NCBI RefSeq assembly: GCF_019649055.1 | Contig: NW_026570340.1 | Location: forward strand, 62,001 to 126,000 | Length of the DNA: 64,000 bases | Origin: Paramacrobiotus metropolitanus | Lineage: Eukaryota > Tardigrada > Eutardigrada > Parachela > Macrobiotidae | Direction: 5' to 3' | In this document: positions 917 through 51,757 of the stretch, piece by piece | How the letters are laid out: every line of letters begins with the position of its first letter | Position numbering within the stretch: the first letter of the stretch is position 1 | Program-made: the position numbers and the translations under genes | The notes under the pieces: generated by a model | Told to the model about the DNA's origin: nothing | Seen by the model: the letters and a program-made list of their open reading frames with translations, nothing else | Databases searched by the model: none

Positions 917-3900
917 CGTCGGGAGTCGGATTTGGTAATCTTCCTCGGATTTCTGGATCTGAGCTGGACGAACAGCCGGCTGACATGGGACCCGCTGCAG
1001 CACCACAACATCACCGCCGTACGCCTTCCGGCCGACCGTGTCTGGCTGCCCGACATCACGCTGTATAACAGGTTATTATTGATTAGTAGCGGACGGGCGT
1101 CCGTCTTCTGACTGTAGGTTCATAGATACGATCAATGGCAATGCCGGGCGCATGTCTCCTCTGTTTTCTTTTCGTCTAGTGCGTTCATTAACAGCTACGA
1201 TACGCGCAGTCGCGCTGTGTTCCCCGAAGAAAAACAGTTGGTCTCGGTGCGTTCGGACGGCGCTGTCACGTGGATACCGCGCGTGACCTTCCCGTTGAGC
1301 TGTAATAGCACGCGGAATACAGCCGGTGATGAAGTGCATTGTGTTATCAAACTAGGTACAAGTACAGTATATAAGGGGCAAAACTAGGCACCTTCCACCG
1401 CTCCCCTGTACTGCTGCGTCACCCGCCTGGAGTTTGACGTTGCGGCAATACATTTGGCTAAATCTGGCGCGGTACATAAGCGCCATGTTCAGCCCCAACG
1501 TCAAACTCCAGTCGGGTGATGGCAGCAGTACAGGGGAGCGGTGGAAGATGCTTGGTTTTGCCCCATATATTCATCAGCAGATTAAGGGAAATCACCCGGT
1601 ACATGGTGTCAAAAACGGGATACATACACTAAAACGTTTTCTTTCGCGCACTCCGAATAACGTTTTGTAAGTAATACTTTATGTCATTCTAAAGCTAAAT
1701 GATTTGTATATCGAAATCCAACGAGGAAATGCGGCATCGATCTTGGGGGCAGCGCCGATGGGAGCGAATTCAGATCAAATTTTCTCTGTGATTAGGCCGC
1801 ATCTATCGATTGATGCTTATTGAGTGATTGATTATTGTGAGAATGTGTAGCGTTTCCCTTACTAACTAATAATAAAAATTTGCAAGAAATATTTGTATAC
1901 ATTGTTCTGTGTTTATAACCTTTAATAAGTATCATGGTACGAGTACAAACTATGCACCACAACAAAACGGCGTTTACAAAAGAAACACTTCCTCTATGCT
2001 ATCCTGATCGGGGATCGTACCCATTACACAAATCGCGTTTCCCCGTTGTATTTGCATAGATATTCACTGTTTAAAGAACTCTTTCGCCCGCTTTTGTCCA
2101 GTTGAAGTCGCTATACCGTTTCCAACCGTTTCTACCAGCTTTTTAGTACCGTCTCCAAAAGGTCCGTAAATTTTGAAGGCTGCAGCAACGAAATCGTATC
2201 TTGTTTGCATCCATTGTTCTGAAAACCGTTTGTGCGCGCAACATCCGGTTGCCGAGATATGGCATACTAAACTGGCGAAAAGTTCAAATGCATTGCTGTG
2301 TACCAAAAGTCTGGTTATTTTACGATTAGAACAAGACTAGCGACTGTACAGGCAACCCTCGCTCAGGGGTGTTTTTGCGCCAAAAAATCGGTATCGAGAT
2401 TCAGCGAGGAAATGCAGTTTCTGTTCTCGTACATTCAGTGACATGGTTGAGCGGGAAGATGTGTATTTTGCCTTTAAATTAGCTGAACGTGAATGATGTC
2501 GCGGATTTTTGTTATTGTTACTTGTATAATACGCAATATGGTTGAAATTTTATGTATTATGTGAACACTAAAGTGACTGAACAGAAAATTTTAGAACAAT
2601 GTATACAAATCATTTAGCTTTAGAATGACATAAAGTATTACAAAAAAGTGATTCGGAGTGCGCGAAAGCGAAAGTTTTAGTGTATATGTATCCCATTTTT
2701 GACGCTACGCACAAGGCCATTTTCCTTAAGGGATTTGGCACCCCTGGCGGTACATGGCGCTGAATGTGGATTTGGCGGTACATGGCGCTAAATTCGTGCA
2801 CATCCACGGGAACTTTCGCTATCGCGCACACCCAGACAATTTTTTGCATTGCTTTGTGGTATTTTGTAGCCAAAGGATTTGTACACCTAAGCGTAATATC
2901 CAATCGCAAGCGCAACGTCCGGTTGGGGAGTTATCGGTAAAATAAAATACCAAAAGTTTAGCCGCACGAACGTGTACTAAAAGGTCTCTCTATAAACCGA
3001 TTCTCTTCAAATTCTGCACAAAAACGCACATATATATGAAGATTGTTTTACATCCAACCAGAATTGCACCATTTTTTCAAATTTTAAAACGAATTAAAGA
3101 AGCTTTGAAATTCATATTGAAATTTAAAAAAAGTTGTTCAACTTTGGTTTGCTGTAAAGCGATCTTTATACTAATGTGCATTTGCATGCAAAATTTGGGA
3201 GGATCGTTTTATAATGAGGCTTTTAATGTATTTAAACTTTTCGGAATTTTGATTCACTTATAACTTTCCAACCGGATGTGCGAAAGTCTCAATATGGATC
3301 GATCTCTTTAAATTATGCACGAAAACTCACGTTAGCATTAAGATAGGTTTTACACCGAATCCGGTGTCCACCATATTTTTAAAATTTAGAAATGAATTTC
3401 AAAAATTTTGCAAATTATTTTAAAATTTGTAAGAAGATCGCTTCGGTGTAAAAGCGATCCTCATGCAAGTGCGCGTTTTTACACAAAATTTCAAGAAAAT
3501 CGGTTGATAATGAGACTGGTACGCCGCCGTGCGTTTAAACTTTTTGGAACTTCCTTGCGGCCCTTACTGTGCATTGGTGCAACCGGATGTTGCGCGCACA
3601 AACGGCTTTCACGCCCATATATGTATACAAATTACCTGGCTACAGAATGCCAGAAAACAGTGCAGAAAAGTGTTTGGGAGCGTGCGAAACTGAAAGCTTT
3701 TGCCACCATAAAAGAACTGGGGAAGAGATTACGTTCCCATTCAGGAGAAGCCCGATCGCACGAATTTCTTCGACAACGTCTGTCTATAGAGATACAACAT
3801 GGTAACGCGGTTTCTGTTTTGGGCACGGTGGAGAAAGCGGATATGTTTACCGAGCTGTTGTTTTTGTAACTGTTTCCTGAACACGTGTTTAAGTGATGGT

Positions 3901-4337
3901 TTGAAATAAAATCGCTATCACTAAAGCTTTTGTGTGCGTAAACAAATTTGGTGGCACGCACTGGGGGACTTTCCTCAAATCGCTTGTGGCGAATAAATGA
4001 TAATAATTTGATTGGGCTTGTTGTAGCTTCGTGGATGTATGACGGTTGGCTGGTGGATTTTCAGGCGTCATCGGGCGACATAATTCACAGAACCGGTAGT
4101 GTATGTGTAGTAACCTCTACATAATATATCCATGGTGAACCAAGCTGTATTATACAGCGGCGTATTTTGACCACTGCAGACTATGCATATTCCCAGCGCG
4201 GTTCCCGCTACCGTATAGTCGACAGCAAGGTACGCCGCAACGTCGTCTTCTACCCCTGCTGCATAGAGCCCTACCCGTCCATCGACATGACCTTTACAGC
4301 ACGAAGTGCAGCAGCATCGCCACTAAGGCTCGCTTAG
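917..4337 (+). CDS. AChBP-like ligand-binding-domain protein, copy A (exons 2-5; exon 1 not in view)
   Basis: Four exons join in phase: 917-1071, 1195-1355, 4027-4095 and 4180-4337. Seen: a W-x-D/N-S-R-L-T-W-D-P segment, loop A WLPDITLYN, a Cys pair separated by 12 residues (CNSTRN...EVHC), loop B SWMYDG, and loop C FYPCCIEPYP with vicinal cysteines. These are ligand-binding motifs of Cys-loop receptors; the short hydrophilic Cys loop without FPFD is typical of AChBP. No channel helices follow. Intron 3 is 2.67 kb, swollen by a TA-flanked MITE and TTAA fold-back repeats, against 67-82 nt in B, C and D. Exon 1 (signal peptide) is absent from the 916 nt upstream. A TAG at 4335-4337 replaces a Trp codon found in the relatives and removes the hydrophobic tail, so any product would end after SPLRLA and could be soluble. 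It could instead be a decaying copy. Confidence 0.7.
1373..1566. mobile_element. TA-flanked MITE with ~70-bp terminal inverted repeats in intron 3 of gene A
   Basis: The ends GGGGCAAAACTAGGCACCTT and its near-complement ending GGTTTTGCCCC enclose about 190 bp. The inverted arms continue through CCGCTCCCCTGTACTGC to about 70 bp each, and the flanks are TATA on both sides. This suggests a Tc1/mariner-type non-autonomous element with a TA target. The inner arm sequence resembles that of the larger fold-back element at 34196-34917. It has no coding capacity. Confidence 0.75.
1582..2739. mobile_element. TTAA-flanked fold-back element (family 1)
   Basis: TTAA at 1582-1585 and at 2736-2739 bound a segment whose two ends are inverted copies of each other over at least 130 bp (left GGTACATGGTGTCAAAAA..., right ...TTTTTGACGCTACGCAC). 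TTAA duplication is the signature of piggyBac-type insertion, but no transposase is present. The interior carries the family block GAAAACCGTTTGTGCGCGCA at about 2222. Degenerate relatives follow directly to about 3980. Confidence 0.7.
2740..3980. repeat. Degenerate family-1 repeats inside intron 3 of gene A
   Basis: Recognisable pieces: GGTACATGGCGC twice at 2750-2795, an AACATCCGG-like block near 2905-2930, the block GAAAATCGGTTGATAATGAG near 3495, and GGATGTTGCGCGCACAAACG near 3583. A 153-codon open frame at 3408-3869 runs through repeat sequence and has no protein-like composition. I see no gene in this stretch. Confidence 0.55.
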
Positions 4338-5304
4338 GCCGCTCTCATACTCAATTCCCTGCTAATAAAATGCGCTAGACTGTGGACTATGCACCGTTAA
4401 TTCGTCGGGCCAGCAACGGTAATGCCGCGGCCCGCCGGCATCTGTACATTACTCCTACAAATGAATACATACCAGTGCTAGCCGCTCTGCACGGAATAAT
4501 CATTCTTTACTCAGTTTGCTGCTAATAATAGTAATAATTCGCTAGTGCGGTGGGTTGTGCTAAACTGTTAATTATTTATTGCTGTTGCTGTCTGTTAGTG
4601 TTCGGCCTGTGTTACGCCGCGCCCCTTCCAGTGTATACCATCCGGTTCCAATATTTTATTGCAGTCGGCCGTCGCCCGTTTATTAATGTCCGAAATGGCG
4701 CCAATTCCGTTGTTGTTACGCTGTATAAGAGCATACGTGCTTGCCTCTACCGCACAGATGTGTAATAAAGAACATTATTTTCTTATGCACACAACACGGA
4801 AGCGGTTGGTGGTGTACATAAGAGCATAGATTTAATGTCCTGCGTCTGACGGCCGTATAATAATCATACGCACAATGTAACTGGTAGGTTTTATGTTTTC
4901 CACGATATTACTGCATTCGTAATCTCAAAGGAAGCAAAAACTATCAAGCTCCTAACTTTATTTAACTTTCCTGGCCTCTTAAACAGTAATCATAGATTAA
5001 TTCTGATAAATAACTAGTGTACACGGTACATATAGTTACAAGTTAATAACACGTACAAAATTAAATACATTTTGGTTTTTCTGGATACCGTACATATATT
5101 ATAGGTTTTTATATGTAGCTGCCAGGTGAAGTTGTCCAGCAGCGTTTGCGAGAGTCTGACTCAATCAAGGGCAGCGCCCAGGGTCCGCTGTCCCTGATTG
5201 AGCTTCACGTGTGAGCCAGGACAATCAAAAACACACTTCCGGTCCGGCGAAAGTCAAATAGTGGCATGGGCAGCTGATCCTATGCTGGTAGGTAACTGGC
5301 TCCT
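4338..5304. other. Gene-free stretch
   Basis: No gene is recognised. A hydrophobic open frame near 4550-4765 lacks an ATG and has no relative in the window, so I do not call it. The sequence from 5118 to 5240 contains imperfect inverted pieces (TGACTCAATCAAGG and CCCTGATTGAGCTTCA). Confidence 0.5.
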
Positions 5305-5586
5305 CTAATACGTGGGTTTACCAATATAGAAAGACAGTCCGTGCTGTATCTTTATTGATGGTTCATGATGACTGTACGCGGATGGTACAAGCACACAGAC
5401 GATGAGATGCCTCTTTGTAGATGACATGCCGATGGTACAACATTGTATAGCTTATATAGGTACAGAGAGGAGGAAGTGGACGTAAATACCTTGCAAGTAT
5501 TCCGGGTCGCATAGACGTTGGTCATAGACCAATATGCTTAGATCGTGAGCGTGTGACCACAACAAGATCTCATCATGTTCTGCACA
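5305..5586 (-). mobile_element. Solo LTR related to the LTR element at 19357-20933
   Basis: Read on the minus strand this matches the 307-bp LTR in order: the start TGTGCAGAACATGATG, CACGATCTAAGCATAT, GGTCTATGACC, CGACCCGGAATACTTGCAAG, CTATATAAGC, AATAAAGATACAGCACGG and an end near CCCACGTATTAGA. Several percent divergence and small indels separate it from the pair at 19.4/20.6 kb. No second LTR or internal region adjoins it, so it is probably an older insertion reduced by LTR-LTR recombination. Confidence 0.75.
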
Positions 5587-5879
5587 AGGCACTCCCCTGG
5601 TACAGAACGACATGTGGGGAGAAGCGGTGTAACCGGTGTTGACCGGAGCCGTCGGATCGGACCGTCCAGCGGTCACCTTTCTTAATAGCAGCGCTGTACA
5701 TAAAACGCTGTCTAGCCACACCGTAAACCACCCACTGCTGGCATCAGCAGTAGCCGGAAACGGTGGAACACGTCTAGTTTGCCCCTATATAGAATAACCA
5801 TAATGCCGCTGGTATAGTTTTACTGTACAGGTAAGACATGAAGGTGCTAGCCTTGCACAAAATGTTGACCTTGTAATGC

Positions 5880-6335
5880 ACCGCATGAGATTGAAATGCC
5901 GATAGGGTTCACGCCGTTCAGTATCGCCATCGTAGGAAAGCCGGCAGAAAAGGTCTATGCAAGATTTTGCGATAGAAGGACAGTAATACCAGTGTGTTCA
6001 AAAGTACTGCTATACAAATTACAGAAAACGCTTCGTCAAGATAATTTTGGCCTTTTTTGCATTGAAATTTTCGGAAGATTATTTTTTCGAAAACTCCCGA
6101 ACCGGCTGTTACGTGCATCCAGAATTACAAATCATTCGGCTATAAAACGATGTGTCAAAAGCGATGCAAAATTGGGGAGAAAGTTCTCGTGCTCGCTTTC
6201 CGAACTTTGTACCTTGTACCACTTTCGTAACGAATCACCTGTTCATACAGATTTAATCATCTTTGCTCGCTGTCGGCCTCGGTCGCGCTGCGCAGTGTAT
6301 CATGCCGCTCGGCCGCCGGCCGTCAAAAATTATTA
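5880..6335. repeat. Family-2 dispersed repeat
   Basis: This matches 26140-27080 and, in its distal part, 44700-45060 and 50290-50640. Shared blocks include GCCATCGTAGGAAAGCCGGC, TTTTGCGATAGAAGGACAGT and the end motif CGGCCGCCGGCCGT, which is itself nearly palindromic. It has no coding signature. The copy at 26 kb carries a nested MITE that this copy lacks. Confidence 0.6.
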
Positions 6336-8034: not shown

Positions 8035-8160
8035 CATTGCATTGCCACACCGGGCGGTTGGCGGCGGAAAAAAAGCCTTCTTTTTTAGTTTCAAGTTTGA
8101 AGTCTTCAGTACAATTTGAGTGACGTTAGTTGGAAAACATACGCCGTCTAATGGTACGCT
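8035..8160. repeat. Family-3 repeat with core TGCCACACCGGGCGGT
   Basis: The core recurs near 23975 (reverse), 34600, 46775 and 53493. In several copies it is followed by CACCTGCGTCACGC and CCGGAAGT. The flank here (AAGTCTTCAGTACAATTTGAGTG) resembles that at 42797-42860. It is a dispersed non-coding repeat of unknown class. Confidence 0.5.
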
Positions 8161-10181: not shown

Positions 10182-10219
10182 GTAACGGTTGCGCTTCGAT
10201 TTCGAAGCGCAACGGTTAC
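10182..10219. repeat. Short inverted repeat (hairpin)
   Basis: GTAACGGTTGCGCTTCGA and its complement TTCGAAGCGCAACGGTTAC face each other with almost no spacer, giving 19-nt arms with one mismatch. Confidence 0.75.
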
Positions 10220-10444
10220 ACGCACGGGTAAGCTGAAAACCCATCCCAGAATTCTGGTTTACCAATCAAATCGTTTACCTGCTTACGCGCCCTGACGTCA
10301 TGATTTTTTACCCGACTGCCGCTTGCGCGTCGCGTAAGACTTACACAGAGCAATTGACCTAGCCCACTAGACCTCTACAATTCTATCTACTCGTACAATA
10401 CTACTCACAAATTGTGATTAGGATACATACAACACCGTGTAATT

Positions 10445-10820: not shown

Positions 10821-10929
10821 CATATTAATTTAATATAGGCCAAGCGATTTCCTTATAAAAACACCACAGTCTACAGTATAAGTAAAGCTGAAGTTAACGA
10901 TGCAAAAACAATATTAAAAGCAACTTTTC

Positions 10930-11880: not shown

Positions 11881-14341
11881 TTACACATTCTTACCTCCAA
11901 ACAAATCACTGAGAGAGTAAAAATCAGTCACTGAATCATTAATCTCGTCATCCGTACATTCCTCAAATTCTAGGAGAGCTTCTAACACCGAGTTGAACTG
12001 ACTCGAAGCGCTTGCATCATCTTGAATTTCCGAATCTGAAACTGTACTGCAGTCATTATTGTTGCTGGAGATTATCTGAATATCTCCATCTTCATCCATC
12101 TCGACTACTGTACCCGAACTTTTCTTGTTTGTTTGAAGGTCGACCTTCAGCGATTCTTTTAGAGCTGCGACTCGCTGCGCTTCCCGTTTTGCCATAATAT
12201 CCTCTTTCTGAAATTTCATTCGCATTGCCACCATTCCCGTAGCTAAATCCAGTTTTAAGTTAGATCGATTGTCATCATGCACGAATCCTAACTGACTCCA
12301 AGCGCGCTCCAAACTCGCTGCATGCACGACGACGTGCCAAAGTTCCAAAACCAAGCTGGCTAGCTCTTTGTGCTCATATTGTACGTATTTCCAATAACGT
12401 TCCACAGAAGAAAGATTCGATGCAACTTCATCTCCAAATATGCCTTTGTTCTCAATGTAATCCATGAGGGAGCTAATCACCCGCATTCCATCAGCTTCAA
12501 ATAAGCGGACATACCATCCTTTTGCCCAACGCAGCACAACCCCAAAATTGAAACGCCCAGACGTGCGGAATGGTTTCATTTTGGACGTTGGGTCCAGTAT
12601 CAAAGCCAAAACAAACAGTGACGGATCATAAAATTTCTGCCAGCGTTTTTCTAGGGTCGACCCTAACACCCCCGCTAAATCATCATCTTCCAGTGCGGTG
12701 AACACGTGGTAAATTTTCGCAAACTGAGTGATAACATCCGCTAAAGTGCATCCATCCGTCTCTGTGATTCCTTGAGCGACAGTGACAGGATCCAGTATTT
12801 GGACAACATTCTTTAGGCCACTCCAAAATGCTGCATCTTCAATAGTGACTTTAAGTTTTGCAAGTCCTTCGGTCTTGGATCGCTCGTCTGCTAGCCGCGC
12901 GACCATGCCCTGTCAAATTTTCATGCTTCACAATACGGAAAACACAATTGTAGGTCGACCTACAAACCTGGAGGGGTAGCTGCGATTTCGCGATCGCGCG
13001 GAACATGTTATTATAGCTGTACCATCGAGTGTCGCAAAGTTTGCTTATTGCTGTCGTGCTGCCATTGTATTTCATTTGCTCTTCTCGAAGAACGGCTAAT
13101 GCTTTCGTGCGCGTGGCTAGTAGCGAAACAATGTCGACCGCTTTCTTGCAAATTGCTGAAAATTTCGGGACAGATGTCAAGACATCTTTCACAATCAGGT
13201 TGATTTGGTGGGCGCTGCAAGGCAGAAATATCTTGCTTGGATACTTCTCCTTCATTAACCGCCTCGCTTTCACGTGGGCGGCATCTGAGTCGCACGTCAC
13301 CGTCCGAGCACAAGCCTTGAATTTTTGCTCCAACATCGTAAAACTGCCTTCGATCTTTTCCATGACATCTTCAGCCCGAGATGATTGAGAAGAAATAATT
13401 TCAGTCGAAAGAAAATGGTTCTCCACCCCTTGACTGTTTTTGACAGTAGCCATAATACCTAAAAAGTAGATTTTTGTAGGTCGACCTACACTTCAATTTA
13501 AACAACACCAAAATTACTCGTTCACTTAGCATCCCCAAACCACCGTTTTCCACTTACCAAGAACTTTATCATGCTTCGCATTTTTGTAACCGTCCAGCGT
13601 CACAGTAACAGACAGTTGCGATGACAAAGCTTTGACTGTGTTGCTTTCAACAGACTTGATGCGCTGTGGGATGATGCGAGTCGATAACACGAATCGACTT
13701 GGTGGCTTCACCGCTGGTCGCATAAATTTCCAAAACCGAATAAATCGAGGATCCTCCACGGCTCGAAAGGAGAAGTTCCCCGAGACAAACATATCGGCAA
13801 GAAGACGCTCAAAATCCCCCAGCTCGTTTTTCGCCAGTGGCCGATCAAAAAACGCTTCCGTGTTCGCCTGCTTTTTTGCAGCGCTTCCACCTGGAACCGC
13901 AGACGACAGCAATGGCACAACGTGTGCTCCTTCGTTTGTTTTTGAGTCGACCCAAACAGAAACTTCCTTGCGGTATGCATCCTTAGCTGACTGTGGAATG
14001 AATTCACACTTATAAAAATGGTTTTCCAGATGCACTTTTTCGCCGCGCAGGGCCTTCGGAGACGGCAGATTAGCAGCGCACTCTTTGCAAATCGCCTCCC
14101 AAAAATTAGAATGAGCAACCTGTTTGGTGCCACGGTCGAAATACCGCCAGATGGGTAAACGACCTGTTCGCATACGCTTTGCCCCTACAAAACGTTCAAG
14201 TAAATCAAACACCTCCTCTAATGAAATAGTAACAGAATGCGGGTCGACCCGCAAATAGCAAAAGAAACTCACCTGAGTCTGACTATCTTCAGTGGGTGCA
14301 GGATCCTTGCCTGAACTGGCCGAATTACTTGTTGGATTCAT
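11881..14341 (-). CDS. hAT transposase (BED-like finger, RNase H-like core, dimerisation domain)
   Basis: ATG at 14339-14341 opens exon 1 (13558-14341). Exons 2 (12968-13458) and 3 (11881-12909) follow after introns of 99 and 58 nt with GTAAGT/AG and GTTTGT/AG ends; phases match, giving 767 residues. Near the N terminus WRYFDRG...FW..ICKEC and HLENHFYKC form a BED-like zinc finger. TLDGYKN supplies the first expected catalytic Asp region, followed by CDSDAAHVKARR and PCSAHQINLIVKD. The C-terminal ELWHVVVHAASLERAWSQLG is the hAT dimerisation signature. The nuclear enzyme would excise and reinsert the element. GTGAGT at 14272 and an AG at 14218 could mark another intron, but the frame is open without it and the phases do not match, so I leave it unspliced. 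Confidence 0.9.
12134..12149. promoter_or_regulatory. GGTCGACC-core palindrome 1 of 5 in the hAT element
   Basis: TGAAGGTCGACCTTCA is a perfect 16-bp palindrome in transposase exon 3. It shares the GGTCGACC core with four others in the same element. Function unknown; a transposase-binding or self-regulatory site is one possibility. Confidence 0.6.
12652..12665. promoter_or_regulatory. GGTCGACC-core palindrome 2 of 5
   Basis: TAGGGTCGACCCTA is a perfect 14-bp palindrome in transposase exon 3. Confidence 0.6.
12948..12965. promoter_or_regulatory. GGTCGACC-core palindrome 3 of 5
   Basis: TTGTAGGTCGACCTACAA is a perfect 18-bp palindrome just inside the 5' end of transposase intron 2. Confidence 0.6.
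13475..13490. promoter_or_regulatory. GGTCGACC-core palindrome 4 of 5
   Basis: TGTAGGTCGACCTACA is a perfect 16-bp palindrome near the 3' end of transposase intron 1. It is identical to the inner 16 bp of palindrome 3. Confidence 0.6.
14238..14253. promoter_or_regulatory. GGTCGACC-core palindrome 5 of 5
   Basis: TGCGGGTCGACCCGCA is a perfect 16-bp palindrome in the 5' part of transposase exon 1. Confidence 0.6.
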
Positions 14342-24616: not shown

Positions 24617-25929
24617 ATGTCTATCAACAGCGTGATAATTCTTCTCTGCTGCAGCGCCGGATTAATTGGCCATACTAACGTTATCATCGCGGCCAGCTCG
24701 GCGAAGACATCGGCCCTGGTCCGGCATCTCATCGCTGCTGAAGACGTCCACGTGCCGCCCAACGCCGACCAGCCCGGTCAGCCGGTGCTCGTCGAAGTCA
24801 GTCTTCAAGTCACCGCAATACAACACGATGTAGGTATTAGGTACATATACAGTAACCTGCGCCTGCGCTGGATATTTCTGACCAGAACTGCCGAGCGAAA
24901 CCATAAAAAAGAAATCTCGTCCGTACATTAAGTTTAGACTGCGGTACTGTATTTATTGCGATTTTATTCGGAATTGTTGGTAAATAAACGTATATATACG
25001 CCTTTTTGCGTTTTGTTCGCGGTTCATGCAAGGTGTACTAGTAAGTTGTTCCGTCTAACCTGTTGTGGGGTCATAGAGTCCGGAGCTGGATTTGGCAATG
25101 CTGCGGGGATTTCTGGACCTGAACTGGAGGGACAGCCGGCTGACGTGGGAACCTCAGGAGCACCACAATATTACCGCGGTACGCCTCCCGGCCGACCGCG
25201 TCTGGCTGCCCGACATTACGCTGTATAACGGGTTAGTCGATGTTGGCGGAAGGACTGTGTCTGTACATACGAACAATCGATCAACGGCCACGCCGGGTTT
25301 ACATCGCTGTCCTCTGTTTTCTTGGCGTCTAGTGCATTCATTAAGCAGCTACGGTACGCGCTGTCGAGCGGTATTCCCGGAAGAACGAAAGCTGGTCTTG
25401 GTGCAGTTGGACGGCCGTGTCACGGGGGTACCCCGCGTGACCTTCCCGTTGAGCTGCAATAAAACGCGCAACTATTACAGCTCCGGTGAAGTGCACTGTG
25501 CTGTTAAGCTAGGTACGGTGCAGTCATCGGATTTGCCGTTTGTGGAGAAAAAACAACAATTTAACTGGTTTTGATGTAGCTTCGTGGATGTATGACGGGT
25601 CACTGGTAGAGTTCTGGCGAGCGACGAGATACTTCAACGAACCGGTAGTGTTTCTGTATATATCTGTCGATTATGATTATGAATATAGCTGCATTGTTCA
25701 GCAGAGTGTCTTGACCATTGCAGACTACTGGGATCTGTATTCCTCCCGTGATTCCACCTACCGTATCGTCGACAGCAAGGTGCAACGCAACGTCGTCTAC
25801 TACGCCTGCTGCCCCGAGTCCTACCCGTCCATCGACATGACCTTTACCGCCCAAAGAGCGGCAGCATCGCCACTGCGACTCACTTGGCCTGCTTTTATAC
25901 TCAGTTCAATGCTAATAATAATACGTTAG
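24617..25929 (+). CDS. AChBP-like ligand-binding-domain protein, copy B
   Basis: Exons 24617-24829, 25077-25231, 25349-25512, 25580-25644 and 25702-25929; about 274 residues. Signal peptide (VIILLCCSAGLIG), then the receptor N-terminal segment, loop A WLPDITLYN, a 13-residue hydrophilic Cys loop (CNKTRN...EVHC, N-glycosylation site N-K-T), loop B SWMYDGS and loop C VYYACCPESYP. The aromatic residues expected around the ligand (Tyr of loop A, Trp of loop B, two Tyr of loop C) are present. The end is AAASPLRLTW plus the hydrophobic PAFILSSMLIIIR; no TM2-TM4. Exon 4 is 4 nt shorter than in A, D and E (65 versus 69), which shifts the frame if the family acceptor at 25724 is used. The frame stays open if the AG at 25701 is used or if the 57-nt intron is retained. 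Start chosen by homology with C and D. Confidence 0.75.
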
Positions 25930-29519: not shown

Positions 29520-29754
29520 GGTGGTGCCATATATGGCGCCACAAGGGACGGATTATTCTAGGACCACCGGGAGTGCCATATGTCATATCTACGAGTGGAG
29601 TGGATAAAAACAGCCTGGCCTCACATCTCGTTACCAATGTAGCCGTGCTCTAGAGACGCTGCAAGTCGTTCTAAAGTGGTAATGCGATTCAAAGAGAACA
29701 GACTTACCGTTAGAAGTGAACTTATGCATAAATGCTCACCTCGTAGTGAACGAC

Positions 29755-30558
29755 ATGTTGGCGGAGGCGATGCTGCACAACCGGCAGGACGACCGCATCG
29801 TACTGCCGGGGCGGGGCCTGAGCAGCAGCATGGCGGACAGCGTGGTGTCCCGACCGCGACTCGGGGAGGACGCGACGTTCACCTGCAGCGTCCCCGACGA
29901 CCTCGACTAGATATGACCTGGACGCACCAGAACTACCGAGTTTTCGAAAACGGAAAGCCGCTGCCGACGGAGAACACAACGGGACAGGCGTATAGCTTTA
30001 GCCACGCCCACCACACCGTTATATTGGTGATCCCCAACGTCAGCATGCGCTCCAGCGGATCCGTGCAGTGCGTCACCAGCCCCGCCCACTCGAGCCGCCG
30101 CGTCGTCCTGCAGCGCTTCCTGCTGCCTGCCGCTGATCACGCAGCGCGGCGAGGTCTTCGCCGCTCTGAACGCTTCCTACGTGACCGCCGTGGAGGGCGA
30201 GGAGGTCACGGTGCAGTGCAGTCTGCGGCTGCCCCTATCGCAGGGCGTTTACCTGAATTTAAGCAACCATTTCATGTGGGTCCACCGCGGCCGCATCGTC
30301 AGCGGTCCCCGGGAGGAGCCCTACCAGTCCCTGCTGCCCGCTCCAGGAAATCCGCGGGAGGTGGTAATGGACTTCGCCGCGTTCGCCAACCGGCCAGGAC
30401 ACCTGGGGCACGCGAGACTACACTTTCGGGCCGTCACGCTGGACGACGAAGGATCGCTGCAGTGCCTGTTCTGGCCACACCTGGGCGTGCACGAGTGGAT
30501 TGCCCAGAGGACCACGCTGGTGGTCTTCGCCAGGGAACACTCCCGCTGGTTTCGTTGA
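29755..30558 (+). pseudogene. Second Ig-family copy, frameshifted
   Basis: The start NDMLAEAM...LPGRG parallels exon 2 of the intact gene (NQILNEAK...LRGYG). Ig domain 1: GEDATFTCS, then in another frame MTWTHQNYRVF and a segment ending SMRSSGSVQCVTS. The switch lies at about 29905-29915 (CTCGACTAGATATGACC), where an apparent 5-nt insertion adds a stop. A second frame change lies near 30130. Ig domain 2 is then open from about 30150 to the stop at 30558: TAVEGEEVTVQCSLRLP, NHFMWVHRG, LHFRAVTLDDEGSLQCLFW, HEWIAQRTTLVVFA. The upstream signal-peptide exon is not seen. Because domain 2 is clean, decay may be recent or an unrecognised intron may skip the first break. Confidence 0.6.
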
Positions 30559-31451
30559 ATTTGTCTGTGCATGTGTGTACGATATCAGCGCGTATAATTC
30601 CACTTTCTAATAACTGCTGATAATGCTTTAACTTACGCAGCACAGGCTACTCTTAAATACGAAAAAAAGCGACGGTTCCGACAATAACTTTGGTGTGATA
30701 GAATTCAAGAAATATAAGGTACTGTAGCTTGGGTCTCTTTATGGCAGCAGTAATGGCGTACAAAATAAGAAGTGCACATCGTCGTGACCTTTAACTTCCG
30801 GTAGAGTGTCAACGTGTTGTTATCGACATTGACAGCAGACTGGCATCGTTCGCCTTCAATAAAATCACGTTTAACTTAATCGCCTTTTATCGTCTTCATA
30901 TGATTTTATCACCTTCAGTCTGATTGGCTTTCGTATTTGCTATAATTTATTTAATGAAATTTGTATGGAATAAATATTGACCATTTATAAACCGTGGATA
31001 AAAGTATATCGTGGATAAATGTACTAGGCATATTTATTTATTGAATAGTTAATTATCTAAAGCAACTGTTTAAAACAGCCGATCCATGAAGAATTTTAGT
31101 TGTCAATTACGGCATAACAATTATGTTCTGTCGTGGTGTCTGGGTTTACCGGTTGTTGACAATTTTCTCGTTACAAACCAGATTTTCAATCCTTTCAATT
31201 TTTATAGCTATGCATTTTGAGAAGGGGTATATAACATAGTGTTTACATGTGTAATAAAGCCGTTGTGCGGGATAATGGAATTTGCCGACAACCTGTCCAA
31301 AAAATAATAATGTATTCTGCTGTGCAAAATAAACCCTGCGGCTCATAAACGCGAAAACAAATCAGTTAATGCATGATTCACGAAGCTGGCAACGAGTAAG
31401 ACGACTGGTCGCGCTGGTTGTTATGACTGGAATCCAATTAACTGCACACGA
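30559..31451. other. AT-rich gene-free stretch
   Basis: Nothing recognised beyond short internal repeats of GATAAAAT/CGTGGATAAA type near 30860-31020. Confidence 0.4.
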
Positions 31452-38135: not shown

Positions 38136-40867
38136 ATGGATTGTTTTGTCGGGGCTGCTGCCGCGGTTCTGCTGCTATTCGTCGGGCTACCTGGAAGCCT
38201 CGAATGTCCAAGCCAAAAAGGCCTCAGCGTGGATAGATGTAAGAAACGGTGCGGTGTACTCAGGACGAACTGTGTAGACTCCCCTGTGACGGAATATGGA
38301 GTACAGTAACGATGTTGTACGTAAAGTGACGGCTTTATTTGTACTAAGTACAAATAGTGCAACCCTTTTTCAGTGCAACTTTTTATGGCAAATTTAATAA
38401 TACTAAAATCGGATCCGTTGAGGCTGTCAAGAACGCGTTGTGCGCTTAGTAACGGGGAGGGGCAGTGGGCGTTTGAGGGATGCCGGACGATTATAACAGC
38501 CTTTATAAAAAACTCGCCAAACGATATTTTTGCACGGAATTTTTGATGGTTGCCGTTTGAGTTTCTTAAACCAGTTTCTCTCTGCATGGCTTATTGGGTG
38601 GTGTCAGAGTAGAAGGCTCTGCCCTCAGGACAGCCGCCCCATCCGCCGCCTACCTGGTTGTCTCAAGCTCAAGCACAAAAATCTTGATCTCAGCCAACAA
38701 CGGCGATGGCACAGTGGCTGTGCTACGTGGATCACACACTCGGTAGCCAGCGGTTCGATTCCGCTCCGTCGCCATTTTTCAGAATTTCCTCAACAGGAAA
38801 TTCTTTCAGACTTCATCTGGCCGCCCTCCCTTCGCTGAGATACCCACGGACAGCCGTCTTTATGGCAGCCTCTGATAGTGGACAGAAGCGTTTAAACTGG
38901 CAAGCGTGTATGTACAAAGGGTCAATTCTCCACTTTAACTATGCCCAAAGTTACATCTCAAAGGTCACGTAGGTTTGGTTGTTATCGAACGATCTGAGAT
39001 ACAGTACGCAAGAGCCTTAAATAGCGAACACGTCAGACTTATTTAGTTTGGATAAATACGTCAATGGAATTTTTAAGCGAATTATAATTCGGAGGAAGGC
39101 TCCCACGGTACATGGGTTTGAAACTGGTCTGCTCTAGTTTCGCATACACTGCAATTCGAAACACGCTCTCAGCGTAAGGAACGATAGTCCAAAGAGGGTA
39201 GACACATACGGCAATACTATAAAATGTAATGATTAAGTCATTTGTGATGGGTGACCTCAGACCCGTGACAGGATTCGGAAAAAAGTGCCCGAACATGGCG
39301 TAGCACCCCTGTACACATCACCGCAGCGGCACACCGACAACTCGTTGACCACTATCCGGCTGACCGACAACTTGCTGGCAGTTTTTTGCCGACCGACGAA
39401 ACGATGACCCAACAGTTTGTCGAAACGACAAATCGCTGAACGACTTTTTGTGAACACCGACAACTTGCTGACGACACTTTGCTGGCTGGAGAAACCCAAG
39501 AAACTTAAGAAGCCAAAGAAAACCTAAGAAAAAACGACAAAAAAGTTATGAAAACTCAAAAATCAACGTATCGCACCGAAAAGCAACTTGTCGGTCAAGA
39601 AAAATGTTTCGAGAAAACATCGGTCAACGATTGTCGGTCGGCGAACTGACGTGCCGCTCACCGCGGCACAACGCCGCCGCGACCTTTATGTGGCTTAAAC
39701 CTTGAGCAATAAACTGTAGCAAGCTAGCAACGGTTGCTAAGCAACCTGTTGGACGAATATCAGTATATTGAGCGCTGCCACCTGATGCGTTTACTTTTCA
39801 TTTCATTTAAACATATTATTTTTTGCACAGTGAACCAGATCCTGAACGAAGCGAAACAATCCAACGGAAGCGGCACCATGTTTTTGCGCGGGTATGGGCG
39901 GCCGCCTCCAACCCCGCGATTCCCGACATGGGAATGGCCGCCCAACACGGCGATCATGCGAGCGCCCGAAGGCGGCGCACTGGTCATTCCTTGCAACAAC
40001 ACTAACAACATGAAGGTACAGCATCCGCGTTTATATACGAGTAGAGCCTAGAGGTGAGGTTATTTAGGGAAATAACACAAGAGGCTATGTAGATGCACAC
40101 ACACGACACGAGTGAGATACGGAATACATTATACATTCTCTATATGACAGCGACCTTAAACAGGCATATTCGTGAATGACCTCAGGCATTACACACAGGT
40201 GTCCCACGTGTCCATTCCGCCGGCATTCATGTACAACGGAAAGCAGTTCGCCATCACAAAGGGCAACACCCGGGAAAAATCATCCGGGGAAACGAATCAC
40301 TGCTGCAACTGCACACCGGAAATCAGTAGCCGGGGCTTCGTGCGGCGCTCCTGGTCCGTCTCCGAGTACGATCCGGCCACTGGTGCGTTCGCCATCACGC
40401 TGCACAACTTCACGGCCTTCGCCAGCGGTCTGTACGAGTGCCTGCACTCCAACGGCCGCCAGCTGGTGGTGACGCAGCGCTACGGGGTCATCGCCACGCT
40501 CCTCCGCCACGAGGTCTTCGACCCGCCCATGCAGAACGTCACCGTCCGCCTCGGCGACCCCGCGGAGATGGTGTGCCCCGTCCGCTTCAACTTCCTCCCG
40601 GAAGCGCTGATCCGCCGCTTCCTGTGGCGCAAGGGACACTTCCTGCTGATGGCCGACGCCATCCCGGCGGTGGCCGACGCGGCCGTGGCGTGGTGGGGCT
40701 TCGATGGATTCTTTGAGGTGGGCGTGCGGCCGCCCTGTGTGTGCAACACCACCATGAAGATCGCCAGCGTCACCTGGGAGCACGCCGGTGTGTACGAGTG
40801 CTGGTTCCGCATCGACGACCGTCAGGATGAATGGATCATGCAGGAGGCCCATCTGCACGTCGTTTAA
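38136..40867 (+). CDS. Secreted two-immunoglobulin-domain protein (intact copy)
   Basis: Exons 38136-38238, 39831-40015 and 40199-40867; phases 1 and 0 agree, giving 318 residues. Exon 1: signal peptide AAVLLLFVGLPGSLE, then CPSQKG. Exon 2: NQILNEAK...RGYGRPP and the first Ig strand GALVIPCNNTNN. Exon 3: a short divergent patch ending HCCNCTPE, then TLHNFTAFASGLYECLHS closing Ig domain 1. Domain 2: VTVRLGDPAEMVCPVRF, FLWRKG, TMKIASVTWEHAGVYECWF, ending EAHLHVV and a stop, with no membrane segment. The D/E-x-A/S-G-x-Y-E-C signature marks both domains. An extracellular binding or recognition role is inferred from domain type only. Intron 1 (1592 nt versus 71 nt in the sister) contains a tRNA-like SINE head and other insertions. 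I know no named family with this exact architecture. Confidence 0.8.
38702..38774 (+). repeat. tRNA-like sequence / SINE head in intron 1 of the intact Ig gene
   Basis: GGCGATG at the start pairs with CGTCGCC at the end. The A-box-like TGGCACAGTGGCTG and B-box GGTTCGATTCC are present, and AGCGG-TTCGATT-CCGCT forms a T-arm. One extra C between T-arm and acceptor, and a poor anticodon stem, argue against a working tRNA. It is followed by a hairpin (GAATTTCC...GGAAATTC). It is most likely the head of a tRNA-derived SINE different from the one at 21.5 kb. Confidence 0.6.
39290..39640. repeat. Degenerate CCGACAACTTGCTG-type repeat cluster in the same intron
   Basis: CGACAACTCGTTGACC, CGACAACTTGCTGGCA, CGACAACTTGCTGACG, and further CGACAAA and CGACAAAAAA pieces repeat at irregular spacing. 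No gene. Confidence 0.55.
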
Positions 40868-45157: not shown

Positions 45158-46429
45158 CTAGCGCATTATTATTAGCAGGAAACTGAGTCTCAAAGCCGCC
45201 CAGGCCAGGCGCAGTTGTGATGCTGCTGCTCTTCTGGCGGTAAAGGTCATGTCAACGGACGGGTAGGGCTCGGGGCAGCAGGTATAGTAGCGGACGTTGC
45301 GGACTGCCGAGCTGGCGACGATACGGTAGCGGGTAACACGCTGGGAATACAGATCAGAATAATCTGCAAAGGTCAACACACGCTGCTGCACAATACAGCT
45401 TCATTCATCACCAATATAATATTATTCGAACAGATACGTTACCGCTTCGGTGACTTATGTAGTCAAAGTCCGTCACAAAGTCCACCAGGGAACCGTCGTA
45501 CATCCACGACGCTACACTCAACCATTATCCAAATTATTAGTTATTTACTCTCCACAAGCGGCAAACCCGCAACTGTACCGAGTTTGATAGCGCAGTGCAC
45601 TTCGTCAGCGGCTGTGTTCTGCGTTGTATTACAGCTCAGCGGGAAGGTCACGCGCGGGATCCACGTGACAGTACCATCGGAATGCACCGAGACCAGCTGT
45701 CTTTCTTCGGGGAACACAGCGCGACTGCGCGGGTCGTAGCTGTTAATGAATGCACTAGAGGCAACGAAAACAGTTGATCGTATCGTGCGTATGTACACTC
45801 GGAAGACGGACGCCAATAATCTATACTAACCTGTTGTAAAGCGTAATGTCGGGCAGCCAGACGCGGTCGGCCGGGAGGTGCACGACGGAAATATTGTGGT
45901 GCTGCAGCGGGTCCCACGTCAGCCGGCTGTCCCTCCAGTTCAGGTCCAGAAATCCCAGCAGTACGACCAAATCCGACTGCAGAGCATGCTATAACCAGAC
46001 CGAACAACTGAACAAGTACACCGTGGATGCCTGCGCCATAATTCAGTCCAAGCGGAAAAAAGGCAGATATGCAGCCCTGTACATGTCCTCGTACACTCAA
46101 TCAGTTTGGCAGCCAACGCAGCGCGATGCTGCTATTGGTACTGGACGCGTGTGCTGGATGAAACGATTGTGACGAACAAGTACAATTTATGTGTCGGTCA
46201 GCGTAACTGCACCGACCTCACGTTGTATGCCAGTAGCAGTCAGGTGGACGCTGATGGTCACCGGCTGACCGGGCTGGTCAGCGTTGGGCGGTACATAGAC
46301 GTCTGCGGCGGCGATAAGATGCCGCACCAAGGCCGACGTCTTCAGCGAGCTGGCCGCGATGATATTTTTATGATGGCCAATTAGTCCGGCGCTGCAGCAA
46401 AGAAATATTACTAAACGCCGGATATACAT
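45158..46429 (-). CDS. AChBP-like ligand-binding-domain protein, copy D (reference copy)
   Basis: Exons on the minus strand: 46217-46429, 45831-45988, 45579-45739, 45443-45511 and 45158-45363. GT-AG throughout, phases 0-2-1-1, 268 residues, no disruptions. N-terminal signal peptide (LVIFLCCSAGLIG), then SALVRHLIAAADVYVPPNAD, the receptor-type first helix region. Next [17 protein letters not shown], loop A WLPDITLYN, TVTWIPRVTF, a 12-residue hydrophilic Cys loop (CNTTQN...EVHC), loop B SWMYDGS and loop C RYYTCCPEPYP. All four core aromatic positions of the cholinergic site are kept. The protein ends AAASQLRLAW plus hydrophobic AALRLSFLLIIMR: no ion channel, but a possible GPI-anchor or tail-anchor signal. 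Ligand and partners are unknown. An alternative upstream Met at 46471 exists but is not shared by B. Confidence 0.85.
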
Positions 46430-48470
46430 TGCGCAGGGCGAATGATCAGCGAGAGCAACACTCAACAACAACGTTAACGACAGCGTTAGCGGGCAAGAAG
46501 TATTTTAGCCAGTTGTGTACACTCTCGAGCATTACTACAGGGATGACTGGCAGCTGTCTGCTATGGGATCATTGCGTACAGTTGTATGCAGTGCACTTTG
46601 TAACTCCTCGTACATGTAACGTACCTCGCGAAGTGGCGCAGTGTACAACTGGCGACATTCCCATAATATGCTTTTATCTAGCTTCTGCACCTGCATCGCT
46701 GTTCACAACTGACATGGCATAATTAGGAACCAGTGTAATTTGAAGGACAGCCATAAAAAACAAACCGCCTCACGCTGCCACCCCGGGCGGTCGTAATTGT
46801 TTCCGGCGCCGGATGTCCAAGATTCCTTCGCTGTAAATCCTCATGATCAGTCTGGATATTCGTCCACACAACTTAACCAGCAGCACTGTTGCCCAATGCC
46901 CTGGCATCTTGACTGCAGCGTTATTCCACTTACCAACTTGTAAGTGATCGCCTGTTAAACAAAATAATTATGAAGGCATTTTGTGATTTGCCCACCACAT
47001 TACTTACTATTCCGCAGTAAACACGAACTGAATTACTACCAACGCAGGTACATGTTATACCCTCCAAATAAAGGGCAGATGCATCATGTCACTTATTCAC
47101 CTAGCGGTTTTGTTCACCTAGAGATTCACTGCTCGGTCATCACTCTCCTAGCGATTTCGTTTTGTGCACTGGACAGCTGGTGGTAGCTCGGTGACTCACT
47201 GCCCTATCAGTTTGGTTTTGTTTCCTTGGAAACCTGGGCTAATTCAAACATGGTGCAGAAATTGGATTTTTTTAGGCACTTGAACATTGAACATTTGAAC
47301 AGCAATCAGGCGATTAAAATTCAGCATGTTTGCAAAATTTATTACACAGTAAAACCTCTCGTTACATACAAATTACAATTCTATATTAAGTACACTTCTG
47401 AGTTCTTTATAACATTCAACCTGTAAGGAACCGAACTGGCTCGCATGTTATAACATAGGGGCGATTCTCTTTATAACATTCACCTCTTTATAAGCCTTAC
47501 ATACACTTTCCGCGGAACCGAATGTAGTTTAACCATTGTAGAAAACCGCTGAACAGTATTCAGAACAACAGTTGCATACACGTAACTGGCTGATGTTATC
47601 TTAACATCCTGGACTAATACGGAGCAACATTAACGTTGTTTGTGTAAATGGTAATTACTTTGTACTATAGTTATGCAAAAGTATATCTCAGCAGAATATT
47701 CTTATTTTATCAGTCTTCAAGTGCTAATCATACTTTAATGAACTAGTCCAAACGAAGTTTGTATTTTTCAATGTACTCGTATGTACGAATGTAATTCAAA
47801 TTTGTAATGTACTACAGATTCTTGCTACTACTGCCTTAATGTTGCATTTATAAAATACATGTACTGCGACCCCCCACACCCCAAATTATAGCAGCGCCCC
47901 TGGGGGCAGTTTCTCTTTATGAAATTCACCCCGGTATAACATACGAAACTGATGGAAGTTCATCATGGAACCGTGCCTGAATTTTATGAAGAGGTTTTAA
48001 GGTAGTACATACTTAATATGTACTTTCATAAATGTGTTAAGCAACTGGCACCGCTATATTATTCCCAAGTTCACCTGGAAGGCTTTACCGAAGCCAGTTG
48101 TGCCGAAACCGGCATCGGTGGGACGGGTGTAAAAATTTTTTTAAGAAATAAAATGCATGTGACACACTTTCTGAACAGGCTGAATCTAATGGCGTTTGCA
48201 GTTTTTTTGGATTAGGTTGTGGTTTTTCCGATCTCGGTGTCTCAGGTTTTTTTGCAGTTATACATATTATAGATCTTCCTTCATATGTATATTGAAGCTT
48301 TAATAATATCATACTGGTACAGTACAAGATCGTCGATAGTAAGCGGTTTCACGAAAATGATCAAAATAAATTTGTACATAATTGACAACAAGGCAGCATT
48401 TTGGCGCCGCAAAAATAGCTAGGGCCAGCCGACCTGCACATCACAGTTATGCTAATCATCACGGAATCGC
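46430..48470. other. AT-rich gene-free stretch with a family-3 core
   Basis: The family-3 core (TGCCACCCCGGGCGGT) lies at about 46775. 47440-47500 and 47910-47950 repeat TTATAACATTCACC-like sequence. No gene is recognised. Confidence 0.45.
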
Positions 48471-48780
48471 GTCAATGGTACGAGTACGGCTCGTAGTTGT
48501 AATTCCTGGACAAAACCTCAAGCTCCGTCTCCCGCAATAGCCAGCGTTGCGTGAGTTCATGCGGCCGAAATAAGCACTGGATGGGTCCAGTTACTGGACC
48601 CGTCCAATGCATATTTCGGCCGCTTGAATACTGGACTCCAGTATCGTCCACTGTGACGGGCCGCAGATGGTATGTATTTCGCAAGACACCCCCGGGCCGG
48701 GATAGTTCCTAGCAGGGCTGTGCTCCAAGCGGACTCGGCCGGGTCCGGCGGTGGCCATGGCTGTTTCGTTGACCTGCATG
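48471..48780 (-). pseudogene. Decayed Ig-domain copy with an inverted duplication in its coding sequence
   Basis: On the minus strand: GRVRLEHSPARNYPGPGVSC (about 48720-48660), NTYHLRPVTVDDTG (about 48680-48640) in another frame, then after a fold-back insertion IQCLFRPHELTQRW and LLRETELEVLS. This matches LHFRAVTLDDEGSLQCLFW...TLVVFA of the copy at 29755. The insertion separating D-D-T-G from I-Q-C is an inverted copy of the bases coding Q-C-L-F-R-P-H-E itself. Confidence 0.55.
48556..48645. repeat. Inverted duplication inside the Ig pseudogene plus a small hairpin
   Basis: 48556-48628: TTCATGCGGCCGAAATAAGC ... TCCAGT faces ACTGGA ... GCATATTTCGGCCGCTTGAA, arms about 36 nt with about five mismatches. 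48629-48645: ATACTGGA-C-TCCAGTAT, perfect. A third hairpin, TAGTGCG(A)GCC...GGCCGCACTA, lies at 48852-48880. Confidence 0.85.
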
Positions 48781-48989
48781 CGCCCGGTAATAATCCGGTT
48801 ACAAAAAACACAGAATTAATCCTGAATCTTCCCACTTGTTTGTTCTATACATAGTGCGAGCCTGGTCCGGGGCCGCACTATCTGTCTGTATCAGCACGAA
48901 CGAGTCGGTGAACGGGACGCCTCAGGGACACAATTACACCAACCAAGCCCAGCGTGTCGCGCAGCATCCCCCTGCTCCTGCCGAATAAA

Positions 48990-49680
48990 ATTTTGAAACG
49001 AACACTACAAAGGAAGTATCTGCAAAATAATTTGCAACTTCAGAAGTTAAATTGAAAATTATTTTGGAATGTTTTTGAAAAAACTTTAAAATTTAAAAAT
49101 ATAGAAATGCTTCTCAAATTACTGAAAAACTCAGAACTATTTTGATATTTCAGGAAATCATTCGGAAATTAACTGCAAAAGGTTCAGGTGAGCTGGAAAT
49201 CATTTAGAATTTAGACAGTAAACAGAAGATTTAACGTAAAAAAAATATCCAGTAAGAAAAATATCAATTTGATCATTTCGAAAACTAACTGCGCTCCAAA
49301 AATTCATTGTTTTCATTCAAAAATAGTTTATTAATTTTCGGGAAATCAATATGGAAGCTACAGTCTTTAACTACCAACTATAAATTTGATTTTGAATTTT
49401 GGAAATAAATTGCAAATTAAGTTTCGAATAAAAACTAATAATAATTTGGGAATGTGGAAAAAATTGGGGAAAACTAATTTCAAAATCCACAAAATACACA
49501 AATCGGAAATTAACAAGAAAAGCAATTTAAAAATGATAATTATTTTGTAACTGAATTTCAGAAATACGAAAGATAATTTTAAATTAAATTCCGAAATCTG
49601 GGAATAATCTAGAAAATAGCTGGTATAATAATATAATTTCTTAGGTCTTCTGAAAATGATTTTAGGTACCGGATAGAAAT
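48990..49680. repeat. A/T-rich low-complexity degenerate tract
   Basis: About 700 bp of GAAATTAA / AAAATTTG-like words without clear period or coding potential. Confidence 0.5.
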
Positions 49681-50936
49681 TGTCTTTTAGTAATTGGAAA
49701 ATCGTTCCACAGCACGGGGCTTATCCTTGGTTCAAAGTTCAGTTGTCAGAGAACCGATCTAATCTGGGTATTGTTACTAGTAGTTCCGCTGCACTGTGTA
49801 ATTATGTGTTTCTGCACGCGTTATCTTCGGTCGCAATCCATTCGCATATGTGTCGGCACTTCCGCCGGTAGCCCGGTGCCAGCCACCGTCCTAACAGCGC
49901 AGCACAACATACAGTAACACACAGTAAGTGTGCTTTGTGGAAAATGGCGAACACTGGAAAACGCCATATACGGTACTTCGCACAGGGGTTTAATTTTCTG
50001 CGGGCGTAATTTCGCAGTTTAACCACTTGATCCACAATTAGTTAATTTATCCCAGTTTAATATTTTTGTGAATTTATTTAATTTCTCCAGATACTTTTTA
50101 ATCGCTTTGCAAATAATGTGCATATCTGTAGTCTTGATTATACGGTTAGCATTTCGGTGTGCATATATAGTGATATATTACAGTATTCGATGGGTGAATG
50201 TAGAGACAAGCAAGCACGCATTCTTACAGCTCAGCAAAAATGGCGCCCTTATAGAGCGTAAATTAAAAATCTGAAATTAATCGTTTTTCCAACGGCCGGC
50301 GGCCGATTACGTCCATTGTGGAACGGCATGGTGCGCACTGCGCGATGGAAGGGAGCGCAGCGTGACAGAAGCCGACAGGCGAATAGAGCGAAGATTAGAA
50401 ATTTATTTGAACGTACACTTACTGGCAGTGCATGTGATTCGTTAAGAAAGCGGTACATGGTACAAAGTTCCGGTCGACGCACGAGTACTTTCTCCCCAAC
50501 CCTGTTTCTGCATCGATTTCCACACACTATAGCCGAATGGTTTGTATACATCCCCGTGCACGCAACATCGCGGTTCGCGGAGTTATCGGTAAAATCAGAT
50601 TTCAAGATTTTCAATGCAGCCAGATGTAGCCAAATTCTCTTTACGAACCTTACACTTACATTTTACTTACTACCTAAGTACTGCACGTGTCTCCACAAAT
50701 CTTTACAAAATTTTGCACAAATCTTTCTGGTAGTTTCTTCAAGATAGCGGGTTGGCACTTAAATCTCATACAGCGCATTACAAGGCCAACATTCTGTGCA
50801 GAGCTGGTAGCGCCGTTATGTATTGCACAGATTACTTGCACCAGCGGGCAGTATTTAGTATAGATATACGTACCTACATGTACATATTAGCAGAACGAAG
50901 TAACTATGCACGCCCAAGCGCATTACGGCATTACTA
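49681..50936. repeat. Repeat-rich gene-free stretch
   Basis: 49710-49790 resembles 44550-44640. 50290-50640 is a family-2 copy (AACGGCCGGCGGCCG end, then GCGGTACATGGTACAAAGTT). No gene. Confidence 0.5.
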
Positions 50937-51757
50937 CTAGCGCATTATTACTAGCAGGAAAGTGAGTATCAAAGCAGCCCAGGCCAGGCGCAGTTGTGAT
51001 GCTGCTGCTCTTCTGGCGGTAAAGGTCATGTCAACGGACGGGGGTAGCAGGTAGCGGACGTTGCGGCCGAGCGACGGTAGCGGGTAGCAGATCAGAATAG
51101 TCTGCAAGGTCAACACACTCTGCTGTACAATACAGCTTCATTCGTTAGCAATATGTATGTGTACAGATACACTACCGCTTCTGTGAGTTAAGTAGCCAAA
51201 GTCCGCCACAAAGTCCACCAGAGAACCGTCGTACATCCGCGAAGCTACATTCAACCAAGATCAAATTAATTGAAATTATTATCATTTATTCTCCACATTG
51301 AAGCGGCAAACCGGCAATTGTACCTAGTTTGATAGCGCAGTGAACTTCATCACCGGCTGTGTTCCGCGAGCTATTACAGCTCAACGGGAAGGCCACGCGC
51401 GGTATCCACGTGGCAGTGCCGTCCGGTGCACCGAGACCAGTTTTCTTTCTTCCGGGAACACAACAGAACTGCGCGTAATCGTATCGTAGCTGATGAAGAA
51501 TGCACTAAAGTCAAATAAAACAGAGGATACAGAATGCGCCCGTCGTGGCGTGTTGATCGTATCGTTCGTATGCGCAGTCAGAAGGCGGATACCGGTCCTC
51601 TAATACAGATACTGACCTATTATACAGCGTTATGTCGGGCAGCCAGACACGGTCGGCCGGGAGGTGTACGAGGGTAATATTGTGGTGCGCGTGAGGCTCC
51701 CACGTCAGCCGGCTGTTCTTCCAGCTCAGATCCAGATATCCCAGCAGCGTTCGCGCT
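50937..51757 (-). pseudogene. AChBP-like copy E, pseudogene
   Basis: Remnants of exons 2 (51617 to about 51757), 3 (51324-51489), 4 (51176-51244) and 5 (50937-51101) remain collinear on the minus strand; exon 1 and the start of exon 2 are missing. Exon 3 is 166 nt against 161 in A, C and D, a net 5-nt change that shifts the frame. Exon 4 keeps its length, but the loop-B Trp codon is CGG (Arg). Exon 5 has lost about 41 nt, removing most of the CC loop. The hydrophobic tail AALILTFLLVIMR and its stop are still readable. This is a dead copy of the D type. Confidence 0.85.

Follow-up and report, generated by a model that had tools for sequence, protein, structure and literature searches.

Channel-less genes resembling acetylcholine-binding proteins, several with a conserved hydrophobic tail, form a tandem array in a tardigrade genome

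We examined a 64,000-base stretch of the genome of the tardigrade Paramacrobiotus metropolitanus (the window; contig NW_026570340.1, here C120, at C120:62001-126000) and found five copies of a gene that encodes the ligand-binding domain (LBD) of a nicotinic-type Cys-loop receptor and that is channel-less in the DNA examined. These belong to a tandem array of eight copies at C120 43.6–113.7 kb, several of which end in a conserved, mostly hydrophobic tail placed directly after the last LBD strand. We propose, with a probability of about 0.5 for the explanation as a whole, that this is a secreted family resembling the acetylcholine-binding proteins (AChBPs), that the array copies spread by tandem duplication, and that the tail-bearing copies c3, B, C and D would be attached to the membrane by glycosylphosphatidylinositol (GPI), the tail-less ones being free. 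AChBP serves as a structural stand-in for nicotinic receptors, although neither what it does naturally nor how it arose is clear.

The assembly searched comprises 169.8 Mb in 533 contigs, and on C120 positions 1-176000 (176 of 411 kb) were examined. The eight copies were located with the exon peptides of B and D as queries, which gave a single weak match (E 0.028) in the rest of these 176 kb. Copies c1, c2, c3 and A follow one another on the plus strand, then comes B, also on the plus strand, and then C, D and E on the minus strand. The Pfam LBD model has 8 matches on C120 among the 84 listed genome-wide, this search and that with the Pfam channel model PF02932 scoring the best candidates only. 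A genome-wide protein search also revealed a ninth copy on another contig (the C4 copy, or c9; 53-60% identical), around which 4.5 kb of DNA was read for this one gene only.

Open copies consist of five exons joined by GT-AG introns of phases 0, 2, 1 and 1, the exons of copy D measuring 213, 158, 161, 69 and 206 bases. The original prediction had placed five copies in the window, all with one five-exon structure and one set of intron phases. Our gene models bear out the five places, and the anatomy recurs in A, C and D and, except for exon 4, in B; that exon is one base short, and B is open only through the acceptor at 25702 or with intron 4 retained. Copy E departs from the scheme, with no exon 1 found. 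The LBD is open in A and c2, whose tails are truncated, and in the tail-less C4 copy, while c1 has a frameshift in exon 4 and a stop before the tail and was counted as a pseudogene. Copy C is open, its vicinal cysteines changed from CC to SG. Intron 3 of copy A (window 1356-4026) is 2,671 bases long, compared to 67-84 in the other six modelled array copies, and the excess is an insertion.

At E <= 0.01, Pfam recognised the LBD alone in the proteins of c3, D, B and C (E 1.6e-33 to 2.2e-24), with one additional match in D at chance level (E 0.23), and none of the 63 PF02932 matches listed genome-wide falls on C120. It has nevertheless to be considered whether these are full receptors with channel exons elsewhere, or an array of receptor pseudogenes in decay, given that two of the eight copies are pseudogenes (c1 and E) and others carry lesions. 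A Pfam blank by itself says little, since channel-like frames absent from the Pfam list occur in receptors on contigs C14, C26 and C128. These are five divergent Cys-loop receptor loci (L031 on C26, L029 and L030 on C128, L032 and L033 on C14) with no channel among the PF02932 matches listed; as candidates for further channel-less genes they were rejected, as channel-like frames can be seen by eye downstream, clearly in four and probably at C14:1344 kb. Because Pfam had missed these frames, we built a profile of the transmembrane segments TM1-TM3 from ten receptors of the same genome, divergent ones included. Over C120:1-176000 this profile gave no credible match, the best being a 30-residue open reading frame with E 0.66. 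Eight of nine control loci scored E 1e-27 to 0.007, where one (L034) contains a gene used in the profile and two (L001 and L035) overlap, and loci outside the profile ranged from 1e-27 (L010) to 0.007 (L036); the ninth control, L004, was not among the 40 matches listed, possibly because the locus ends before the channel. No hidden channel exons for the array copies were thus found over C120:1-176000, and neither PF02932 nor the profile finds in these copies the TM1-TM4 region of a nicotinic receptor channel subunit, in agreement with the predicted LBD-only, channel-less architecture. In addition, the dN/dS of the LBD is 0.33-0.59, hence below 1 in every one of the 15 pairs compared (six copies, with c1, E and c9 left out), and the C4 copy is an open five-exon LBD that ends in a stop, so that receptors with remote channel exons, or their decaying remains, are a very improbable explanation.

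The residues of the binding site are conserved. Across seven copies and five positions, 35 of 35 cells of the aromatic box are aromatic and 33 are canonical (W, Y, W, Y and Y, with F replacing Y in two cells), and the vicinal cysteine pair is present in every one of these copies except C. The Cys loop is hydrophilic and lacks FPFD, with 12-13 residues in A-D, as had been predicted, and 10-13 across the seven copies aligned. The N terminus is hydrophobic in all seven open models, and each of the six array models inspected contains N-glycosylation sequons, of which the one at the NI[ST] site is shared. In the open copies a signal-like N-terminal segment thus appears to be combined with a complete LBD and an aromatic cage that would hold a quaternary amine, from which a ring binding an acetylcholine-like ligand is expected: if expressed, the subunits would assemble as a ring, probably a pentamer, and would bind acetylcholine or a similar ligand with no channel to open.

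A search of PDB sequences returned 285 matches headed, from E 2.6e-26 upwards, by entries for AChBP (titled 'soluble acetylcholine receptor', from Aplysia) and for AChBP chimeras, with human alpha2 close behind (E 1.4e-25). The LBD shares 24-32% of its residues with two AChBPs and 23-31% with human alpha7; its identity to an alpha7-like receptor of the same genome, measured on partial exons with gaps set to X, is 33-41%. With these values, the family may descend from AChBPs or may have risen locally from an alpha7-like receptor; a published tree (PMC3423370) also leaves AChBP/receptor splits open.

The tail reads AA[AV]S[PQ]LRL[AT]W followed by 13 mostly hydrophobic residues in c3, B, C, D and E, hence in five of the eight array copies and in four of the five window copies, with the pseudogene E included in both counts. 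In copy A the position of the tail tryptophan is taken by an in-frame TAG (window 4335-4337), with a one-base deletion behind it. The fifth tail codon, next after AAAS, is a stop in c1 (TAA) and in c2 (TAG), and in the C4 copy the stop follows KRV. The expectation of a tail in every copy was therefore correct for B, C, D and E and wrong for A, as it would be for c1, c2 and the C4 copy beyond the window. The DNA behind the C4 stop resembles the tails when set against dinucleotide shuffles (p = 0.0025 for c3, 0.0385 for B, 0.002 for C and 0.031 for D; an indel is present), which indicates that the tail sequence, coding or not, probably predates the split between the array and the C4 copy. Behind their stops, c2 (C120:51527-51598, in-frame TAG and then CTA) and c1 (45880-45951, TAA) retain a hydrophobic frame that is open to the same end, which could be due to recent loss or to leaky stops. 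A count of tail losses was attempted on a tree of family members only, with E and exon 4 omitted, and was discarded, the bootstraps being 30-61.

Where it is present, the tail is a genuine C terminus, as first proposed. Among the ten pairs of the five copies, DNA identity is 0.71-0.94 in the tail and falls to 0.45-0.62 over the 72 bases that follow it, shuffled sequence giving 0.45-0.48, so that conservation ends at the stop codon; introns 3 and 4 come in between, with 0.45-0.71 in twelve comparisons. By the Nei-Gojobori method, the pairs c3-B and D-C pooled have 13.5 changes over 39.1 synonymous sites and 10.5 over 98.9 nonsynonymous sites (omega 0.31; Fisher p = 0.001 as first rounded, 0.0008-0.005 when the fractional counts are rounded otherwise), which suggests purifying selection on the tail. 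Whole-tail omega is 0.17-0.37 among c3, B, C and D and 0.38-0.96 for pairs with A or c2. Over the last 18 codons it is 0.31-0.51 for pairs among c3, B, C and D, 0.44-0.54 for c1 against them, 0.66-1.06 for c2 against them, 0.89 for c1-c2 and 0.38-1.18 for pairs with E (B-E 0.73, D-E 1.18).

These measurements bear on the view that the copies encode ordinary soluble AChBP-like proteins and that the tail is a leftover of little function, arising by read-through into an old intron, from a 3' untranslated region or from a decayed TM1. Such a view would account for the stops before or within the tail in the C4 copy and in three array copies out of eight, of which A and c2, like the C4 copy, retain an open LBD. 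Moreover, in the full-length receptors L007 and L040 of this genome the C-loop exon ends at a GT donor six codons past RR, where a loss of splicing could yield a tail of this kind. The synonymous bias of substitutions in intact copies (omega 0.31, p 0.001-0.005) and the fall of identity at the stop argue against it, as does the comparison with TM1: the idea of a decayed TM1 was rejected after six tails had been compared, without gaps, to four TM1 sequences from the same genome (p 0.04-0.89), the likeness being not significant in five (p 0.16-0.89) and at 0.043, uncorrected, in D. No GT is common to the four intact tails as a conserved splice donor, and a poly(A)-like signal within 400 bases was found, inconsistently, in 4 of 8 copies. 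We consider a leftover tail unlikely.

The layout of the tail fits a GPI-attachment signal, one of the two roles originally suggested for it, the other being a short tail anchor; attachment itself is deduced from this anatomy. A site of small residues lies 21-22 residues from the end as AAA or AAS in B, C, D and E, and at 23 or 21 as SAA or AVS in c3, followed by a short spacer and then 12-13 hydrophobic residues. On an insertion scale, the best 15-residue sums are +0.37 in B, +0.21 in C and -0.32 in D, near zero as in GPI signals, and -1.4 in c3 and -3.5 in E. A GPI-like rule of our own, tuned on the tails after they had been seen and so a description, neither a test nor a published predictor, passes c3, B, C, D and E and fails A, c2 and c9, c1 not having been entered. 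Under the same rule, random C120 read-through passes in 1,665 cases (0.9%) of the 185,907 that reach a stop among 200,000 draws, and draws of 15-35 codons pass in 1,013 of 56,132 (1.8%).

The hydrophobic run of 12-15 residues and the terminal Arg in five copies, together with the sums of c3 and E, would also suit a short C-terminal membrane anchor retained in the mature protein, and LBD-TM genes, which join an LBD to a transmembrane segment, are tabulated in lophotrochozoans (PMC6896357, Table 1). Against an anchor, the run is short, at about 15 residues, and only marginally hydrophobic in B, C and D, and the small-residue cluster and spacer are needed by a GPI signal and not by a spanning tail, which makes a retained anchor quite improbable, if less so than remote channel exons. 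A membrane-tethered AChBP is a fair reading of the tail-bearing copies.

Under the proposed explanation, the last 23 residues of c3, B, C and D would form the GPI-attachment signal, with an Ala/Ser site after the last LBD strand, a spacer and a marginally hydrophobic run, and cleavage at that site would leave the protein on the outer face of the membrane, in the orientation of a receptor LBD. For A, c2 and the C4 copy, whose stops fall within the tail or ahead of it, free secretion would be expected, and the family thus seems a mixture of tethered and secreted forms. Either form may buffer, capture or decoy cholinergic ligands. We entertain more tentatively that the family is a GPI-tethered acetylcholine-binding one, repeatedly switched to the secreted form by stops in or before the tail, possibly leaky ones.

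Several observations weigh against the proposed explanation. The tail is 23 codons long, it has an Arg at its end and another in the spacer, both unusual for GPI signals, and the hydrophobic run contains an Arg in D and a Pro in C. Many members manage without it, as it is lost in three of eight array copies (A, c1 and c2) and in the C4 copy, and only c3 and D lack any visible lesion. Introns are likewise non-random, intron 4 reaching an identity of 0.70-0.71 in three pairs out of six, close to the bottom of the tail range. The omega ranges of intact and broken tails overlap over the last 18 codons, and the C4 post-stop DNA is only a decayed match (p 0.002-0.04, four comparisons). Furthermore, the LBD is closer to the alpha7-like receptor of its own genome than to AChBPs.

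The AChBPs of Lymnaea, Aplysia, Biomphalaria, Capitella and the spider Cupiennius likewise consist of an LBD only, with a signal-like N terminus, no FPFD, an aromatic box and vicinal cysteines (PMC3423370, PMC4569296). They differ from the present family in its eight-gene tandem array, in the hydrophobic C-terminal tail of five copies and in the low identity to the two aligned. The soluble AChBPs end soon after the last LBD strand, as the models of A, c2 and the C4 copy do and those of c3, B, C and D do not. The alpha7-like nicotinic receptor subunit of the same genome (L040, C20:761.5-764.8 kb) has an intron just past the point where the tail starts, but has channel-region matches (C20:763169-764989).

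The lophotrochozoan LBD-only and LBD-TM genes are also channel-less, some with a single predicted transmembrane segment, within nicotinic receptor families that include tandem arrays (PMC6896357). Table 1 of Jiao et al. 2019 (PMC6896357) gives 4-34 LBD-only and 2-11 LBD-TM genes per species in ten molluscs and annelids (LBD-only: Capitella 34, Aplysia 19, Pacific oyster 10; LBD-TM: Capitella 9, Octopus 7), so channel-less LBD genes are common in lophotrochozoan annotations and the supposed absence of a described architecture does not hold at this level. These are domain tallies, however, and the accessible text of PMC6896357 contains no shared tail motif, GPI reading or alternation of tethered and soluble forms. 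Searches of an open-access library, from which subscription journals are largely missing, were aimed at a tethered or GPI-anchored AChBP and, more widely, at expansions of AChBPs and nicotinic receptors (one of the wider ones listing 20 of 1,984 papers), and among the papers listed we found no account of such a protein. What seems new is one family that apparently mixes tethered and secreted members of the AChBP kind, channel-less LBD genes being already known. A single genome whose array includes members with and without the tail would offer a way to test how a receptor domain turns into a binding protein, and could also tell buffering of transmitter at the membrane from free decoy action.

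Table 1. Positions of the gene copies and tails (window positions unless a contig is given).
Feature	Position	Strand	Details
Copy A	917-4378	+	exons 2-5: 917-1071, 1195-1355, 4027-4095, 4180-4378; LBD open
Copy A exon 1	C120:61781-61990	+	just upstream of the window
Copy B	24617-25929	+	exons 24617-24829, 25077-25231, 25346-25512, 25580-25644, 25724 or 25702-25929; full tail
Copy B tail	25858-25929	+	AAASPLRLTWPAFILSSMLIIIR-stop
Copy C	35749-33435	-	exons 35749-35540, 35470-35316, 34071-33911, 33828-33757, 33637-33435; open
Copy C tail	33506-33435	-	full
Copy D	46429-45158	-	exons 46429-46217, 45988-45831, 45739-45579, 45511-45443, 45363-45158; open throughout
Copy D tail	45229-45158	-	full
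Copy E	51747-50937	-	pseudogene; traces of exons 2-5; exon 3 frame break; exon 5 deletions
Copy E tail	51008-50937	-	open
c1, c2, c3 (L021, L022)	C120:43621-58993	+	upstream of the window
C4 copy (L039)	C4:927766-929122		open five-exon LBD, KRV-stop, no tail

Elsewhere in the window, an open reading frame on the minus strand (11884-12912) has a match to the hAT transposase dimerisation domain (E 0.00036) and one on the plus strand (40160-40864) a weak immunoglobulin V-set match (E 1.5e-5), each just under the Pfam cut-off. Three other frames have no Pfam match at E 0.01, namely 29643-30617 on the plus strand (325 aa) and 60463-61368 (302 aa) and 60753-61871 (373 aa) on the minus strand.

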